Shown here piece by piece: positions 1 to 57,049 of a DNA stretch of 64,000 nucleotides; position 1 is the stretch's first letter, and each line of letters begins with the position of its first letter. The stretch spans positions 1,969,001 through 2,033,000 of the forward strand of contig NZ_CP134696.1 in the NCBI RefSeq assembly GCF_031851795.1, given 5' to 3'. Below the pieces are notes generated by a model. The model worked only from the letters and a program-made list of their open reading frames with translations, had not been told where the DNA came from and made no database searches. This DNA is from Pontibacter sp. G13. GTDB lineage: Bacteria > Bacteroidota > Bacteroidia > J057. The position numbers and the translations under genes are program-made.

Positions 1-297
1 CTCCCAAGAGCTAGAGAAACCTCATTTTTTGGCCCATAAATCCCAAGAGAACATATCCATCAAATCACAGCCTTAGAATAAAAGCGAAGCTTTGGTCCCT
101 CCCAAGATCTAGAGAAACCTCATTTTTTGGCCCATAAATCCCAAGAGAACAAATCCATCAAATCACAGCCCTAGTATAAAAGCGAAGCTTTGATCCCCTC
201 CCTAGATCTAGAGAAACCTCATTTTTTGGCCCATAAATCCCAAGAGAACAAATCCATCAAATCACAGCCCTAGTATAAAAGCGAAGCTTTGGTCCCC
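1..297. repeat. ~99-bp direct tandem repeat, three copies, cut by window edge
   Basis: Three head-to-tail copies start at about 1, 99 and 198 and are nearly identical. Each holds the segment ACCTCATTTTTTGGCCCATA and ends with a small AAAGC-GAA-GCTTT hairpin. The first copy starts at the window edge, so the array probably extends further left. No reading frame runs convincingly through it. The rest of the stretch up to 660 holds only a terminator hairpin, and I see no gene in it. Confidence 0.85.
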
Positions 298-6414: not shown

Positions 6415-7752
6415 TCAATCCTGATAATTAAACGGCTGATACCCAATCAACCGATCGGTCCGGTCCGTGGGGCGACGATGGTAGACAAGGACCGTGTAGA
6501 AGTTTTCGGAGAATTCATGACGGCCTTGAAAGGTCGCTTCATCCGGCAGGGGATCGCCAGATCGTTTGACCACATATTCGTAGTCGTAAATGCCTTGTTT
6601 GAGCCAGATATCTCGCTCATAGACTCCCAAGGCTTCATTCCATTCCAACTGATACTGAGGCAACATCTGCCAGTCGGAGAACTTCCCAAACACATACACA
6701 TTGCCATCCACAGGTGCATTGGAACGAACCCGAAATTGGTTGAGCACATAGTCCGCTTGGACGCGCGGATCATCCCATTCCTCCACCTGAACCGAAAATG
6801 TCCCATTGCGGTCGCCGTATGAGCGGAATACATTTCGGGTCAGCGGGTCATCTTTGAACAGGAAAAAGTGCCAAGCATCTTGACGATCCTCGATATCCTC
6901 GACTGATTCGAAGAGCAATTGGGTGGAAGCATTGGCATGATACCGGAATTCGTTCCCTCCCTGAAAAGCATCCATGAAATCTATGTAGTACTCAAATCGA
7001 GGCGGTGTATAAAATCTAGGGGCCCCCATGACGACCTCCGAATCCCACCGGAAATTCTGCATGACCTTGACCGTCAGATCTTGTGCAGGATTGAAAACCT
7101 GTACGCCGGGTACGACCACTTCGAATGCCAAATCCGCCATTTTTTCGCGTACGAGTCTGCTGCTCAATTCGTATTTGGTCTCGATAGTCGCCTCGCGTTC
7201 CACCACAATAAATCTCCTCGTCAAGACCACATCGGACGGATTGGCATTGCGATACACCTTCAGGATGTAGTTGCCGCTCATCTTGAATCCCTCATTTTCG
7301 CGAGGAAAAGCGTGGACATAATGCATGTACGGGACCTTCGTGAATCGCGAGCGCTCATAGTTTTCGATCCGTACTTGGGTGAATCCATCATAGAATTCAA
7401 TCGGCAACAGGGTTGTCGGGCGCCAGAATCGGTCGCAGTTCACGATGTCCACATAGTAATCATCGAAAGGCTTGTCTTCCGGCAGCCATTGGTCGAATTC
7501 CAATACGAGGGGCTCCACTGCTCCCTTGAACAACACTGGATAGGAAGCCTGATAGGGAGGGCGGTACAGTTGCGGGGTATGGATGGTCGGATCATAGATC
7601 TTATCCTCCGGCAGCCATCGCTGGGAGCGGGTGGGATTGGTCCCATTGGCCACATTGAGGGAGGAAGAAACAGGGCATCCGGTGATGAGGAGTGCCAATA
7701 AAAAAGCGGCTCCAAGGCATACGGGGAGCATCAAGCGGGAAAAGGTATTCAT
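6415..7752 (-). CDS. T9SS plug-type DUF5103 lipoprotein
   Basis: The product has 445 residues from the ATG at 7752; an upstream TTG would add 13 residues in front of the signal peptide. The signal ends LLALLITGCPVSS, a lipobox, so the mature protein is a lipoprotein. The body matches what I know of DUF5103 proteins: an N-terminal beta domain (PVLFKGAVEPLVLEFD, then DDYYVDIVNCDRFW), a central beta region with DAFQGGNEFRYH, and a C-terminal Ig/CBM48-like segment (DGNVYVFGKFSDWQ, then YDYEYVV). In Flavobacterium such a protein plugs the type IX translocon SprA. The fold assignment is by motif memory; the T9SS role is inferred from the family. It lies 72 bp downstream of the M1-like gene on the same strand, so the two may be cotranscribed. 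Confidence 0.75.
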   Translation of the reverse strand: MNTFSRLMLPVCLGAAFLLALLITGCPVSSSLNVANGTNPTRSQRWLPEDKIYDPTIHTPQLYRPPYQASYPVLFKGAVEPLVLEFDQWLPEDKPFDDYYVDIVNCDRFWRPTTLLPIEFYDGFTQVRIENYERSRFTKVPYMHYVHAFPRENEGFKMSGNYILKVYRNANPSDVVLTRRFIVVEREATIETKYELSSRLVREKMADLAFEVVVPGVQVFNPAQDLTVKVMQNFRWDSEVVMGAPRFYTPPRFEYYIDFMDAFQGGNEFRYHANASTQLLFESVEDIEDRQDAWHFFLFKDDPLTRNVFRSYGDRNGTFSVQVEEWDDPRVQADYVLNQFRVRSNAPVDGNVYVFGKFSDWQMLPQYQLEWNEALGVYERDIWLKQGIYDYEYVVKRSGDPLPDEATFQGRHEFSENFYTVLVYHRRPTDRTDRLIGYQPFNYQD

Positions 7753-7824
7753 CAAGCCCATCCAATTCGGAAGATTTCCGGAAGGTCGCAACTTTCACGC
7801 GCTTTTCCCAACAGTGCTCATTTT

Positions 7825-9381
7825 TCACCCATTGCGCCGCTTGCCGTTCTTTTTCTTCTTGACCTCAGTCACTTCATGGACCTCAAACCAGCCGGTATGC
7901 ATGTCGATTGACAGGGTTTTGGGGTTGAGGCTCTTTTCATGGAGTGCCTGCCATTCTTTGGTCGGACTCAGACGATAGGTTTCCGCTTCCACTGCGATGG
8001 TGATCGGCAGATTGAATCCCGGTTCAATAGCACGCCAGCGATATTCGAAATCCGTTTTCTTGCCGTGCTTGACAAATCGATATTCGAAGATCGGAAGCTC
8101 CTCGTAATGGAGGTATTGGTTGAAAACGGGCTCGTAATCCTCTGCCATTCGACTAGCGAAAAACTCCTTGAAGGCCTTTCCAGTCAATGGTTCTTCCGAG
8201 AAGGTATCAGACATTTCGCGGAGCATGTCTTGCCAGATTTCCCAATCCGGAGTCAAGCTCGAAAGCGTGAAAAGCATCCATGCGCCTCGATTGTCCTGCG
8301 CCTGTGCATCGAGATATTCGCGGGCAGCTTTTTGATCGTAGAGGTGCTGGACGTACATCGCCTCGATATATACCCGAATGGCATTGATGACCCAAAGGTC
8401 GGTTTCAGAGGCAGCTTGGATGTTTCGCCCAAACCATGCTCTACTCAGATCGTGGAGTAGTCCGGCATCAAACCCCCATTTGTTATTGGAAAACACCTCG
8501 GAAGCAGATCGTTGGTGTCCTTGTTGATCGTAAAAAGGCGAAGACTCCACCCATGTGTAGCCTTGGTGCCAATAGGGATATGGCCCAAACGCCTGCTCCA
8601 GAAAAGCGAGCATACGACGTTGCTGAACCAAGTATTCCGCCGAAAAGGAATGGTGATATGCCAAGATGTAATAGGTCAACACACGGGGGCGGCCTCCTTG
8701 GGTATATGGCTCGCGCATTCGCACATAATCCCCCACATACACCTCAATGTCTCGCGGATGAAGCGGTCCTTCCAACAAATAGGTCCATCGCTGAAACCCA
8801 CCTGGGCGGTTTTCCAACTGCTGGAGAGTACCCGGAGCTACTGCCATCGCATCTCTTGGGAAAATCACATGGATATGGGCACTGTCCGCCGATTCCTGCT
8901 GATACCGGAAGGCAGGCCACCAACCAGATTCCATGACCCATTCGTCATTGAGGACGACCCAATCTTTGTCGAAATGATCCTTTCTCCACACTTTTTCTTC
9001 CCCCGGATACCGCTCGGCTGGCTGGCCATAGAATACGACCGACAGCTCATAGGCTTCTCCTGTCTTCAGGGATTGCGGAAATTTCAGTCTCAAAGCTCCC
9101 GCCTCATGCCGATGGGGAATCGGTTTTCCCTCCCAAACAGCGCGAGCCACCTTCAAGCTATCATGGAGATCCAAGGACAGCTCTTGGACATTCGCCAGTG
9201 CTTGGAAAGCAACTGTGACGGTACCTGCCAATCGCTGTTTCGCTGCATCGAGTTGCAATTCAAGATCATAATGAACCACATCGACGGGTTGCGCACTCCC
9301 TGACTGGGCAAGCACATGGATGGGCGCAAATACGATAGTCAGCCAAAGGCCCCATTGGCGAAGGGAAAAATGTTGAAGCAT
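7825..9381 (-). CDS. M1 peptidase-like protein lacking the zinc site (pseudoenzyme)
   Basis: The product has 518 residues with a signal peptide ending VLAQ. The N-terminal beta domain (VVHYDLELQLDAAKQRLAGTV) and the following thermolysin-like domain have the layout of M1 aminopeptidases. Where M1 enzymes have HExxH-X18-E, this protein has HDLSR at 310-314 and Asn at 333, so one zinc His, the zinc Glu and the catalytic Glu are all replaced. The GxMEN substrate loop is also absent (ESSPFYDQQ instead). It ends in a Lys-rich tail. It should be periplasmic or surface-exposed and non-catalytic, perhaps a binding or assembly protein. The gene just downstream encodes the T9SS plug-type lipoprotein. 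Confidence 0.75.
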   Translation of the reverse strand: MLQHFSLRQWGLWLTIVFAPIHVLAQSGSAQPVDVVHYDLELQLDAAKQRLAGTVTVAFQALANVQELSLDLHDSLKVARAVWEGKPIPHRHEAGALRLKFPQSLKTGEAYELSVVFYGQPAERYPGEEKVWRKDHFDKDWVVLNDEWVMESGWWPAFRYQQESADSAHIHVIFPRDAMAVAPGTLQQLENRPGGFQRWTYLLEGPLHPRDIEVYVGDYVRMREPYTQGGRPRVLTYYILAYHHSFSAEYLVQQRRMLAFLEQAFGPYPYWHQGYTWVESSPFYDQQGHQRSASEVFSNNKWGFDAGLLHDLSRAWFGRNIQAASETDLWVINAIRVYIEAMYVQHLYDQKAAREYLDAQAQDNRGAWMLFTLSSLTPDWEIWQDMLREMSDTFSEEPLTGKAFKEFFASRMAEDYEPVFNQYLHYEELPIFEYRFVKHGKKTDFEYRWRAIEPGFNLPITIAVEAETYRLSPTKEWQALHEKSLNPKTLSIDMHTGWFEVHEVTEVKKKKNGKRRNG

Positions 9382-53246: not shown

Positions 53247-53360
53247 TTCATTTGCAGCTTTTGCGTGCGGAAATACCAGAATTTCGCACCAGTGAATCCC
53301 ACCCGAAAAATTCGCGTAGGCTTTGCCAAACAAATTCGGAAGGCTAACTTCCGCCTGCTT

Positions 53361-54152
53361 ATGGCTATACCAGAAATTCGCACAGTCGAGGTGACTCGAT
53401 ACGTAACCCCACTCCGGGAAGGCGGTTCGCTCCCGGCGATCGTGGATGCCGACGACGACCTTCCCTACGTCCTAAAATTTCGCGGCGCCGGACAGGGTAA
53501 GAAGGCCCTGATCGCCGAGTTGATCGGTGGGGAATTGGCCCGGGCCATCGGGATGAAAGTACCCGAACTAGTCTTCATGAATCTCGATGATTCATTTGCC
53601 AAGACCGAGCCGGACGAGGAGATTCAGGATCTGCTCAAATTCAGTGTCGGCCTCAATCTGGGGCTTCACTATTTGTCCGGGGCGATCACCTATGATCCGA
53701 TCGTGTCTGTCGCAGACGAGATGGAGGCTTCCAAAACCGTCTTGTTGGATACGTGGATCACCAATGTGGACCGGACCTTCCGCAACACCAATATGCTCAA
53801 TTGGAATCGGGAGCTATGGCTCATCGACCACGGGGCCAGCCTGTATTTCCACCATGCATGGACCAATTGGCAAGCCAATGCGGAGAAGCTTTTCCCCCGC
53901 ATCAAGGATCATGTCCTGCTCAACCGCGCCACCCAACTGGATGCCGCACTGGAAGAGATTCAGTCCAAGATCACCAGACAGACGTTGGAAGACATTGTCG
54001 CAGCGATCCCCGAAGATTGGCTTTGGGAAGATTTCGACCCCGTCACCCCAGAAGAGCGCAGAAATGTATATGTCGAATTTTTAGATATTCGGCGGAGGAA
54101 ACTAGATTTACTGGCCAAAGAAGCGGAAGATGCAAGACAAGCAAGTATATGA
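53361..54152 (+). CDS. HipA-like kinase (HipA_2 type)
   Basis: The product has 263 residues from the ATG at 53361. An upstream in-frame start at 53265 would extend the frame toward the repeat and is not preferred. A HipA-fold kinase is readable: LPYVLKFRGAG (nucleotide Lys at 39), a helical region, then the catalytic loop WITNVDRTFRNTNML with Asp near 137, and IDHGASLYFHH (metal-binding Asp near 156). It lacks the N-terminal HipA domain and any HipB-like regulator. It overlaps the next gene by 23 nt, a pairing (HipA_2 with DUF3037) I know from other bacteria. Role unknown; protein or RNA kinase activity is inferred. Confidence 0.78.
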   Translation: MAIPEIRTVEVTRYVTPLREGGSLPAIVDADDDLPYVLKFRGAGQGKKALIAELIGGELARAIGMKVPELVFMNLDDSFAKTEPDEEIQDLLKFSVGLNLGLHYLSGAITYDPIVSVADEMEASKTVLLDTWITNVDRTFRNTNMLNWNRELWLIDHGASLYFHHAWTNWQANAEKLFPRIKDHVLLNRATQLDAALEEIQSKITRQTLEDIVAAIPEDWLWEDFDPVTPEERRNVYVEFLDIRRRKLDLLAKEAEDARQASI

Positions 54153-54513
54153 ATATTCGGTCGTGCGGGTAGTCCCCAAGGTCGAGCGCGAGGAATTCGT
54201 GAATGTGGGGGTGTTGCTGTATTGCAAGCGTCACAAGTTTCTACAGATGAAATACCAGATCGACCAGGAGCGCCTACGAGCGTTCTCTCCCGATCTCGAT
54301 CTCGACGAACTTGCTCAGTATCTCCATGCCTGGGACCTCATCTGTCAAGGAGATCCACAGGGCGGCCATATCGCCATGCTGACACCTCCCGAGCGATTCC
54401 GCTGGCTGAGTGCCACAAAAAGTACCATCCTGCAAAGCTCCAAAGTGCATCCGGGCATCTGCGACGCCCCCGAAATGACTATCGGGAAGCTGTTTGAGGA
54501 GTATGTGTTGTAG
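54130..54513 (+). CDS. DUF3037 protein, partner of the HipA-like kinase
   Basis: The product has 127 residues, starting YEYSVVRVVPKVEREEFVNV then GVLLYCKRHKFL, the DUF3037 signature. It is all cytosolic, alpha/beta in character, with conserved R/E residues and no catalytic motif I can name. It starts 23 nt before the kinase stop, so the two are translationally coupled. It ends 17 nt before the 216-bp tandem array. Confidence 0.85.
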   Translation: MQDKQVYEYSVVRVVPKVEREEFVNVGVLLYCKRHKFLQMKYQIDQERLRAFSPDLDLDELAQYLHAWDLICQGDPQGGHIAMLTPPERFRWLSATKSTILQSSKVHPGICDAPEMTIGKLFEEYVL

Positions 54514-54529: not shown

Positions 54530-56694
54530 CCGCGCGCTCTGTTTGGCGTCATACCGGACGAGCACTACCGTCCAGACCCAGCAATGAATCAATCCCAGAC
54601 CTACCAAACACCCTAAGGAGATTTCCGCGAAGATCCGGTATCTGAAAACCCCACTTTCAAGCCCTTGGATAGATGGCTGAGCTGATACCTCAGATACCGG
54701 ATAAATTCCACTACCCACACCCAGCCTCGAGAATTTTCCGGCAGGACGCGCGCTCCGTTTGGCGTCATACCGGACGAGCACTAACGTCCAGACCCAGCGA
54801 AGAATCAATCCATGACCTACCATACACCCTAAGGAGATTTCCGCGAAGATCCGGTATCTGAAAACCCCACTTTCAAGCCCTTGGATAGATGGCTGAGCTG
54901 ATACCTCAGATACCGGATAAATTCCCCTACCCACACCCAGCCTCGAGAATTTTCCGGCAGGACGCGCGCTCCGTTTGGCGTCATACCGGACGAGCACTAC
55001 CGTCCAGACCCAGCGAAGAATCAATCCCAGACCTACCATACACCCTAAAGAGATTTCCGCGAAGATCCGGTATCTGAAAACCCCACTTTCAAGCCCTTGG
55101 ATAGATGGCTGAGCTGATACCTCAGATACCGGATAAATTCCCCTACCCACACCCAGCCTCGAGAATTTTCCGGCAGGACGCGCGCTCCGTTTGGCGTCAT
55201 ACCGGACGAGCACTACCGTCCAGACCCAGCGAAGAATCAATCCCAGACCTACCATACACCCTAAAGAGATTTCCGCGAAGATCCGGTATCTGAAAACCCC
55301 ACTTTCAAGCCCTTGGATAGATGGCTGAGCAGGCACCTCAGATACCGGATAAATTCCCCAACCCACACCCAGCCTCGAGAATTTTCCGGCAGGACGCGCG
55401 CTCCGTTTGGCGTCATACCGGACGAGCACTACCGTCCAGACCCAGCGAAGAATCAATCCATGACCTACCATACACCCTAAGGAGATTTCCGCGAAGATCC
55501 GGTATCTGAAAACCCCACTTTCAAGCCCTTGGATAGATGGCTGAGCTGATACCTCAGATACCGGATAAATTCCCCTACCCACACCCAGCCTCGAGAATTT
55601 TCCGGCAGGACGCGCGCTCCGTTTGGCGTCATACCGGACGAGCACTACCGTCCAGACCCAGCGAAGAATCAATCCCAGACCTACCATACACCCTAAAGAG
55701 ATTTCCGCGAAGATCCGGTATCTGAAAACCCCACTTTCAAGCCCTTGGATAGATGGTTGAGCAGGCACCTTAGATACCGGATAAATTCCCCTACCCACAC
55801 CCAGCCTCAAGAATTTTCCGGCAGGACGCGCGCTCCGTTTGGCGTCATACCGGACGAGCACTACCGTCCAGACCCAGCGAAGAATCAATCCCAGACCTAC
55901 CATACACCCTAAAGAGATTTCCGCGAAGATCCGGTATCTGAAAACCCCACTTTCAAGCCCTTGGATAGATGGCTGAGCAGGCACCTTAGATACCGGATAA
56001 ATTCCCCTACCCACACCCAGCCTCGAGAATTTTCCGGCAGGACGCGCGCTCCGTTTGGCGTCATACCGGACGAGCACTACCGTCCAGACCCAGCGAAGAA
56101 TCAATCCCAGACCTACCATACACCCTAAAGAGATTTCCGCGAAGATCCGGTATCTGAAAACCCCACTTTCAAGCCCTTGGATAGATGGCTGAGCAGGCAC
56201 CTTAGATACCGGATAAATTCCACTACCCACACCCAGCCTCGAGAATTTTCCGGCAGGACGCGCGCTCTGTTTGGCGTCATACCGGACGAGCACTACCGTC
56301 CAGACCCAGCAATGAATCAATCCCAGACCTACAAAACACCCTAAGGAGATTTCCGCGAAGATCCGGTATCTGAAAACCCCACTTTCAAGACCTTGGATAG
56401 ATGGCTGAGCAGGCACCTTAGATACCGGATAAATTCCCCTACCCACACCCAGCCTCGAGAATTTTCCGGCAGGACGCGCGCTCTGTTTGGCGTCATACCG
56501 GACGAGCACTAACGTCCAGACCCAGCGAAGAATCAATCCATGACCTACCATACACCCTAAGGAGATTTCCGCGAAGATCCGGTATCTGAAAACCCCACTT
56601 TCAAGCCCTTGGATAGATGGCTGAGCAGGCACCTTAGATACCGGATAAATTCCCCTACCCACACCCAGCCTCGAGAATTTTCCGGCAGGACGCA
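54530..56694. repeat. Ten-copy 216-bp tandem repeat array
   Basis: The segment TTTGGCGTCATACCGGACGA recurs every 216 bp from 54542 to 56486, ten times, with only scattered substitutions between copies. Each unit carries a 13-bp inverted repeat (ATCCGGTATCTGA and TCAGATACCGGAT) and a smaller GGACG/CGTCC hairpin. Because 216 is divisible by 3, a long frame stays open on the minus strand, but it begins with TTG and differences between copies are mostly non-synonymous in it. There are no unique spacers, so it is not a CRISPR array. Confidence 0.95.
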
Positions 56695-56752: not shown

Positions 56753-57049
56753 TTGGAACACAACGCATACGTCTATATAATGACGAACGGTAATCATACC
56801 ACCTTTTACATTGGAGTTACAACTGACCTTCCTCAAAGAATCCGCCAACACCGTGAAGGCACAGGCTCCATATTTGTTCAAAAATATAAGCTTGTGAAGT
56901 TGGTTTACTTCGAGGGATTTGACCGAATAATTGATGCCATTGCCCATGAAAAAAGGATGAAGCGATGGAGGAGGGCCTGGAAGGAAAGTTTAATTGATAA
57001 GAAGAACCCAAACTGGGAAGATCTTTTTGAGGGTCTATGGTATATATAA
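56753..57049 (+). CDS. Stand-alone GIY-YIG endonuclease domain protein
   Basis: The product has 98 residues. The catalytic signature is YVYIMTNGNHTTFYIGVT (GIY-YIG motifs as VYI and YIG), followed by the conserved Arg in DLPQRIRQHR and the metal-binding Glu in HEKRMKRWRRAW. It belongs to the UPF0213/YhbQ-like group. The start appears to be TTG at 56753, because the nearby ATG at 56728 is out of frame. Base composition is clearly more AT-rich than upstream genes. It abuts the 216-bp tandem array. Confidence 0.82.
   Translation: MEHNAYVYIMTNGNHTTFYIGVTTDLPQRIRQHREGTGSIFVQKYKLVKLVYFEGFDRIIDAIAHEKRMKRWRRAWKESLIDKKNPNWEDLFEGLWYI

Follow-up and report, generated by a model that had tools for sequence, protein, structure and literature searches.

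CGTC-tagged REPs form a superfamily that, in the sections of Di Nocera et al (2013; PMC3733652) devoted to these elements, includes dRS3 of Neisseria and RPE-4 and RPE-6 of Rickettsia. They are defined there by the tag, an AT-led stem (8-9 bp beginning AT, section 6), a short loop and an arrangement in head-to-head dimers, and they are described as elements that "apparently lack a dedicated transposase", the spreading enzyme being left open. A second comparable system is the REPtron, in which REP, BIME or REPIN sequences are accompanied by a RAYT gene. Here, we analyzed a stretch of 64,000 nucleotides of the genome of Pontibacter sp. G13 (the window), which contains a tandem array of palindromes beside the gene of a stand-alone GIY-YIG nuclease. 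We consider it probable that the GIY-YIG nuclease and the CGTC palindromes constitute a small mobile module like a REPtron and that the array arose by tandem amplification of the palindrome pair of this module.

Each array unit consists of two CGTC-tagged palindromes, elements 1 and 2, placed head to head (Table 1), and the tag of element 2 faces that of element 1 in the next unit with 14 bp between them. The elements resemble the CGTC-tagged REPs in the unpaired end tag (CGTC, TGTC or CCTC in the REPs; CGTC in the array, at element 1 in the ten units and, on the minus strand, at element 2), in the head-to-head dimers and in the presence of many dispersed intergenic copies. The stem of element 1 also fits, being AT-led and 8 bp long, whereas that of element 2 is 7 bp without the leading AT. 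The array differs in its loops, which are long in both elements and of 4-5 bases in the REPs, in its tail, which is CTGA and in the REPs mostly CCA, in its long tandem arrangement and in the nuclease proposed as its partner. Because the tag, the stem start (in element 1) and the dimers are shared, but not the loop and the tail, we term the array elements a REP-like variant. Several palindromes flanking relatives of the nuclease have short loops and are closer to the CGTC REPs, such as CGTCATGCTGAACTTGTTTCAGCATC. With the REPtron, the locus has in common small palindromes flanking the gene of a DNA-cutting enzyme, their alternating orientation and their tandem clusters, but the enzyme is a GIY-YIG nuclease and not a Y1 tyrosine transposase, and the tag is CGTC and not GTAG.

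Table 1. Features of the array locus, with positions in the window
Feature	Position	Strand	Description
HipA_2 kinase-like gene	53265..54152	+	PF20613, E 5.8e-21; neighbour outside the module
DUF3037 protein gene	54130..54513	+	PF11236, E 7.9e-46; stops 17 bp short of the array; neighbour outside the module
Tandem array, 10.0 x 216 bp	54531..56693	.	TRF and column variants
Element 1, unit 1	54547..54645	+	CGTC-ATACCGGA...TCCGGTAT-CTGA; CGTC tag, 8-bp arms ATACCGGA/TCCGGTAT, 75-nt loop; every 216 bp, all ten units
Element 2, unit 1	54690..54748	-	CGTC-C-TGCCGGA-AAATTC...GAATTTA-TCCGGTA; CGTC tag followed by C; arms TGCCGGA/TCCGGTA with one G-T pair; inner arms AAATTC/GAATTT; present in every unit; fold z -2.0
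13-bp hairpin, unit 1	54633..54702	+	arms 54633-54645 and 54690-54702; z -3.1
Stand-alone GIY-YIG nuclease gene	56753..57049	+	98 aa, probable TTG start; PF01541, E 1.5e-11 (residues from 56780 on); pLDDT 92.4

TRF analysis indicated a period of 216 with 10.0 copies as assembled, 97% matches, 0% indels and a score of 4004, confirming the ten-unit array that a first-pass annotation had reported from the letters alone, and 18 columns varied in the alignment of the ten units. The perfect 13-bp stem that it had assigned to each unit was present in units 1-5, whereas units 6-10 have T at column 161 and hence a G-T pair. Among the variants described as private to units 1 and 9, those at columns 53 and 55 (CAATGAATC) and 77 proved to be so, whereas CTCTG (column 10) was common to units 1, 9 and 10. 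The named gene neighbours (HipA-like kinase, DUF3037 and GIY-YIG) were all correct by Pfam. The statement that such arrays are rare was untrue in the array's own genome, in which 16 of the 20 sampled stretches gave a TRF row, 15 of the 20 having been picked for palindrome, GIY-YIG or transposase matches. A search for single units elsewhere in the 7.67-Mb genome, as the annotation had suggested, located the full 216-bp unit in the array only, with 3 more weak matches spanning approximately 50 bp; this is the part of the unit that is similar to dispersed elements elsewhere in the genome. In ssDNA folding, the 13-bp hairpin, in which the 3' arms of elements 1 and 2 are opposed, was equalled by 1 of 200 shuffles and was the best of the three folds tested. 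The second hairpin (element 2) was moderate (9/200), and element 1 alone was no better than shuffles (z -0.5), so that the standing of element 1 rests on its tag and arms.

A 738-aa frame runs along the minus strand of the array and stays open because the unit length, 216, is divisible by three. Of the 18 changes in this frame, 6 were synonymous and 12 nonsynonymous at an expected synonymous fraction of 0.29, indicating no visible selection, and the frame was rejected as a protein; the translated product under purifying selection that the first-pass annotation had allowed for was thus not found. No stretch of the frame's Pfam match to Dehydratase_MU passed by itself. At another locus (L135 9642-10663), clusters of CGTC palindromes were likewise open in several frames and gave spurious proteins (e.g. 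'..RHCEARSNL..'). The Rfam search returned a single chance-level match, located outside the array, and no family for the array, which left the suggestion of a tandem small-RNA array unsupported.

Related palindromes were dispersed in the host genome. A scan of 80 kb not chosen for elements (the two neighbours of the window and two arbitrary stretches) detected 24 related elements vs 3 with control tags, and the first inner-block pattern gave 40 matches in the genome and 6 in the control. By an inner-block search that ignored pairing, 86 elements were collected from 20 stretches and the window, 84 of which had fully paired 6-bp arms with G-T allowed, in nine arm combinations, five of them main ones. 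The paired fraction of distinct arm pairs was 0.963 compared with a mean of 0.779 and a maximum of 0.926 in 1000 shuffles, for a set whose stretches were mostly chosen for elements and in which arrays repeat copies. The change on both palindrome arms holds despite the chosen stretches. The host genome contained five GIY-YIG matches, three of which were short stand-alone frames, namely, the gene in the window and a tandem pair of copies, one of them shorter, lying amid palindrome arrays at C1:4.465-4.467 Mb.

The AlphaFold2 model of the window protein was of high confidence (pTM 0.85; pLDDT in Table 1), and its best full-length structural matches were At-HIGLE and Slx1 nucleases (Z 6.7-7.9), followed by UPF0213 (6.9 and 5.7), I-TevI (5.8) and UvrC (5.2-5.5). 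According to the titles of the structure entries, Slx1 acts with Slx4 in the processing of branched DNA. The likeness to the Slx1 nucleases, modest at a Z of up to 7.8 in a range for which the tool warns of common arrangements, lends support to, but does not prove, the nuclease reading of the predicted fold. Y8, Y19, G21, R29, E66 and N85, some of which we take to be catalytic, belonged to the positions that were identical in all 70 aligned proteins (69 of the 71 eligible loci were kept, L160 and L172 being dropped). The C-terminal Asn (N85) distinguishes the window protein from Slx1, which lacks it according to the available text of the GIY-YIG survey PMC1564403. The protein also matched UPF0213 in sequence (1zg2, E 2.9e-6), but UPF0213-like genes adjoin tRNA genes, whereas nucleases of the window type adjoin palindromes. 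With the GIY-YIG homing endonuclease I-TevI, it shares the catalytic core (1ln0, Z 5.8 over 70 residues) and the presence or absence of the gene at a site, but it consists of 98 aa without a separate binding domain, and the ends of its cassettes carry palindromes. The string 'palindrom' is absent from the available text of PMC1564403, and a literature search, with preprints and most subscription journals outside its reach, found no earlier description of a link between a GIY-YIG nuclease and REPs.

To examine the linkage in bacteria at large, contigs were scanned with four GIY-YIG proteins, and the best 80 of 520 confirmed relatives were kept. By record title, these 80 were mostly from Bacteroidota, including some metagenome bins, and there were also loci from Pseudomonadota, Bacillota, Elusimicrobiota, Chloroflexota, Ignavibacteriota, Fibrobacterota and two candidate phyla. 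With the main detector (CGTC palindrome, 5-bp stem, tail C), 277 palindromes were found in the 77.9 kb within 500 bp of the GIY-YIG genes vs 93 in the 924 kb further out at these best 80 of 520, resulting in a density near the gene 35 times that further out in the same loci. At least one palindrome was present within 500 bp at 69 of the 80 loci, and on both sides at 36; at the window locus itself, palindromes are upstream of the GIY-YIG gene only. The enrichment depended on the tag: among eight control tag sets, the four without a real tag gave 1-4 near elements, and the four that include CCTC, itself a real tag, gave 18-22. A 6-bp stem gave 111 near vs 64 far elements and 33 of the 80 loci, compared with a mean of 4.0 and a maximum of 11 loci in 200 same-locus draws, and five control tags with this stem gave 2-11 near elements. 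Repeats common to both flanks were found at 51 of these 80 GIY-YIG genes vs 4.4% of 2102 control positions. The first motif was weaker (67 near, 69 far, 28/80 loci), and a loose detector was noisy (3.9 vs 2.1 per kb noncoding; control tags 20-50 near and 147-319 far).

In a second sample of 20 Bacteroidia loci, 13 had an element, with 72 elements in 19.9 kb near the genes vs 13 in 77 kb; one locus without an element, L192, is the same gene as L232 in the control clade described below. The linkage was not universal, as 11 of the best 80 of 520 relatives had no palindrome by the main detector, two of the loci scored as misses (L176 and L177, Bradyrhizobium) having inverted repeats that are built differently. 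Within the family to which the window belongs, 5 of 19 stand-alone loci, one of them chance-like, and 1 of 12 long-frame loci matched the strict motif, and inspection of 12 flanks by eye revealed palindromes of other kinds in several. Among 149 Bacteroidia genomes, one palindrome class and GIY-YIG matches occurred together in 47, the palindrome class only in 7, the GIY-YIG match only in 53 and neither in 42 (p 1.1e-4), for genomes that are not independent and a pattern that spans some stem types only; thus, 7 of the 54 genomes with this class had no GIY-YIG match, and 53 of the 100 genomes with a GIY-YIG match did not have this class.

As a control clade, we analyzed 30 loci of stand-alone GIY-YIG genes related to L079, which are UPF0213-like. 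An element was present at 2 of the 30 loci, corresponding to 0.10 per kb, which equals the background rate, and the linkage is therefore a property of one clade rather than of the fold or of small genes in general. In this clade, 26 of 30 genes were within 500 bp of a tRNA gene, compared with none in the set of the best 80 of 520. The tRNA-adjoining clade (L213-L242, Bacteroidia loci) may be a tRNA-targeted homing family; at L079, partial copies of the tRNA-Asn end were observed on both sides of the gene. In one genome (L244 742-5383 and L243), a tRNA-linked GIY-YIG gene is itself repeated in tandem, with 10.2 copies of a 457-bp unit at 99% matches that end at a tRNA-Met gene, and a shorter series of four matches lies downstream of a tRNA-Asn gene.

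Comparison of the sequences also indicated a correspondence between the nucleases and their palindromes. The nuclease tree (87 nucleases, 98 columns) was poorly resolved, with 45 of its 84 inner branches open, and 72 of the 87 rows entered the shuffles, those of L124, L132 and L083 and of all untyped loci being left out and the types of the window and L061 being assigned by hand. The 8-nt palindrome type required 38 changes on the tree, compared with a mean of 43.5 and a minimum of 40 in shuffles (0/500 as few; 72 rows). The 5-nt type also exceeded chance (1/500 overall, 4/500 within Bacteroidota), and did so when shuffled within host class (7/500) or host family (2/500). In a group with a support of 91, a bin of Elusimicrobiota and three Bacteroidota loci all had the palindrome core TGCGGGCTTGACCCGCA. 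As judged by this comparison, the palindrome type follows the nuclease tree.

The palindromes and the gene were also present or absent as a block. In genus g13, a block of palindromes, GIY-YIG gene and palindromes was located downstream of a shared upstream stretch in two species and was missing from two others: G097 has approximately 860 bp where G158 has 57 bp, with both flanks aligned, and for G014 vs G061 the downstream side was judged by eye. In genus g81, the cassette of G136 is approximately 0.9 kb. From the rows listed of 59 genomes, 38 congeners in which a single contig holds both flanks were tabulated, and 36 of them had no room for the cassette, with gaps of 24-181 bp; the two exceptions, G198 and G201, had other, larger inserts. 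Since G136 is the single carrier in a large set of congeners, insertion is the simpler reading for the g81 cassette. A search for empty sites in the genus to which G056 belongs gave no clear case. The G097 and G136 cassettes, the two whose ends were read, start with CGTC and end with GACG. At the best 80 of 520 loci, 77 of 100 outermost tags pointed outward (p 5.5e-8), and the innermost elements of the same loci had no clear orientation bias (56/100 outward). At the same intergenic spot without the cassette, another repeat (AACCGCAGAGGTCGCAGAG-like) was observed in two species (L200 near 4270 and the L201 junction).

Four findings established by comparison, namely, the linkage, the need for the CGTC tag, the match with the nuclease tree and the presence or absence as a block, would best be explained if the GIY-YIG nuclease acts on the CGTC palindromes in place of the tyrosine transposase of a REPtron. 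The nuclease would cut a palindrome extruded as a hairpin, cruciform or other branched DNA, and repair or recombination at the cut would spread the palindromes, carry the gene along and expand arrays such as that in the window. The earlier suggestion that the array is a substrate of the nuclease thereby gained comparative support in a more general form, in which relatives of the nuclease gene are associated with CGTC palindromes and, in two genera, are present or absent together with them as a block. It is, on the other hand, conceivable, but in our view unlikely, that the GIY-YIG gene acts as a selfish homing gene, landing on existing palindromes without moving or amplifying them, and that another enzyme spreads the palindromes. 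The seven Bacteroidia genomes with one palindrome class and no GIY-YIG match fit such a gene, and GIY-YIG domains are found in homing endonucleases, as stated in the available text of PMC1564403, but the block present or absent in two genera includes the palindromes of both sides, and the palindrome type tracks the nuclease tree even within host family. That a RAYT-like (Y1) transposase moves the CGTC palindromes, with the GIY-YIG gene as a passenger, is very improbable: the host genome has two Y1_Tnp genes that could serve, but no CGTC element was within 1.5 kb of either, which led us to reject RAYT as the palindrome partner, and Di Nocera et al (2013; PMC3733652), in the sections concerned, report likewise for other species.

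With regard to the array itself, 24 of the best 80 of 520 GIY-YIG genes had a tandem array no more than 700 bp away, compared with an expectation of approximately 5.6 from these loci; CGTC-type palindromes were recognized by eye in the majority of the array units listed, and the window array (2.16 kb) was longer than any other GIY-adjoining array among those listed. This excess suggests a link with the nuclease and counts against growth by ordinary tandem duplication (slippage or unequal crossing-over) without its involvement, though any palindrome cluster might do likewise. Palindromes are prone to slippage and unequal crossing-over, and the variants common to units 1 and 9 are as expected from block duplication. 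Ordinary duplication, although somewhat unlikely, is the alternative to which we give the most weight for the growth of the array. A role of the array as an RNA or a binding site (small RNA, terminator or nucleoid protein) would account for the strong 13-bp hairpin, but it is an improbable reading, having no Rfam family behind it and leaving the link to one nuclease clade and the block insertions unexplained. We attach hardly any probability to an assembly artefact in the copy number, as the units differ at 18 columns and the array is on a 7.54-Mb contig, and the comparative result is independent of copy number in any case.

Many bacteria have CGTC-tagged REPs, and which enzyme spreads them was left open in the 2013 survey, in the sections cited above (PMC3733652). 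A nuclease that has such palindromes beside it in loci from several phyla, corresponds to them in sequence type and shares their presence or absence as a block reduces this question to one small protein and short oligonucleotides. In the broadest form of our proposal, to which we would give an even chance, CGTC-tagged REPs throughout the bacteria, perhaps also classic ones such as Neisseria dRS3, owe their mobility to dedicated small GIY-YIG nucleases with the invariant C-terminal Asn, and together with these nucleases they form minimal mobile elements that move by structure-specific palindrome cutting and leave satellite-like arrays as amplification products. If the proposed module is real, the RAYT transposases would have a GIY-YIG counterpart, and the satellite-like arrays of bacterial chromosomes would gain an explanation.

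Other repeats were noted in the course of the analysis. The start of the window (1-297) falls within another tandem repeat (99 bp, 3.0 copies), which extends upstream (L066 19440-20000) with periods of 42, 87 and 131 bp. At L062 6890-8387, a Y1 transposase gene (7527-7868) has, in a RAYT-like placement, an array on either side, both made up of another type of palindrome with two hairpins, which consists of AGGGTTTCCAACCCT plus GTCGGGCC..AGCCC.
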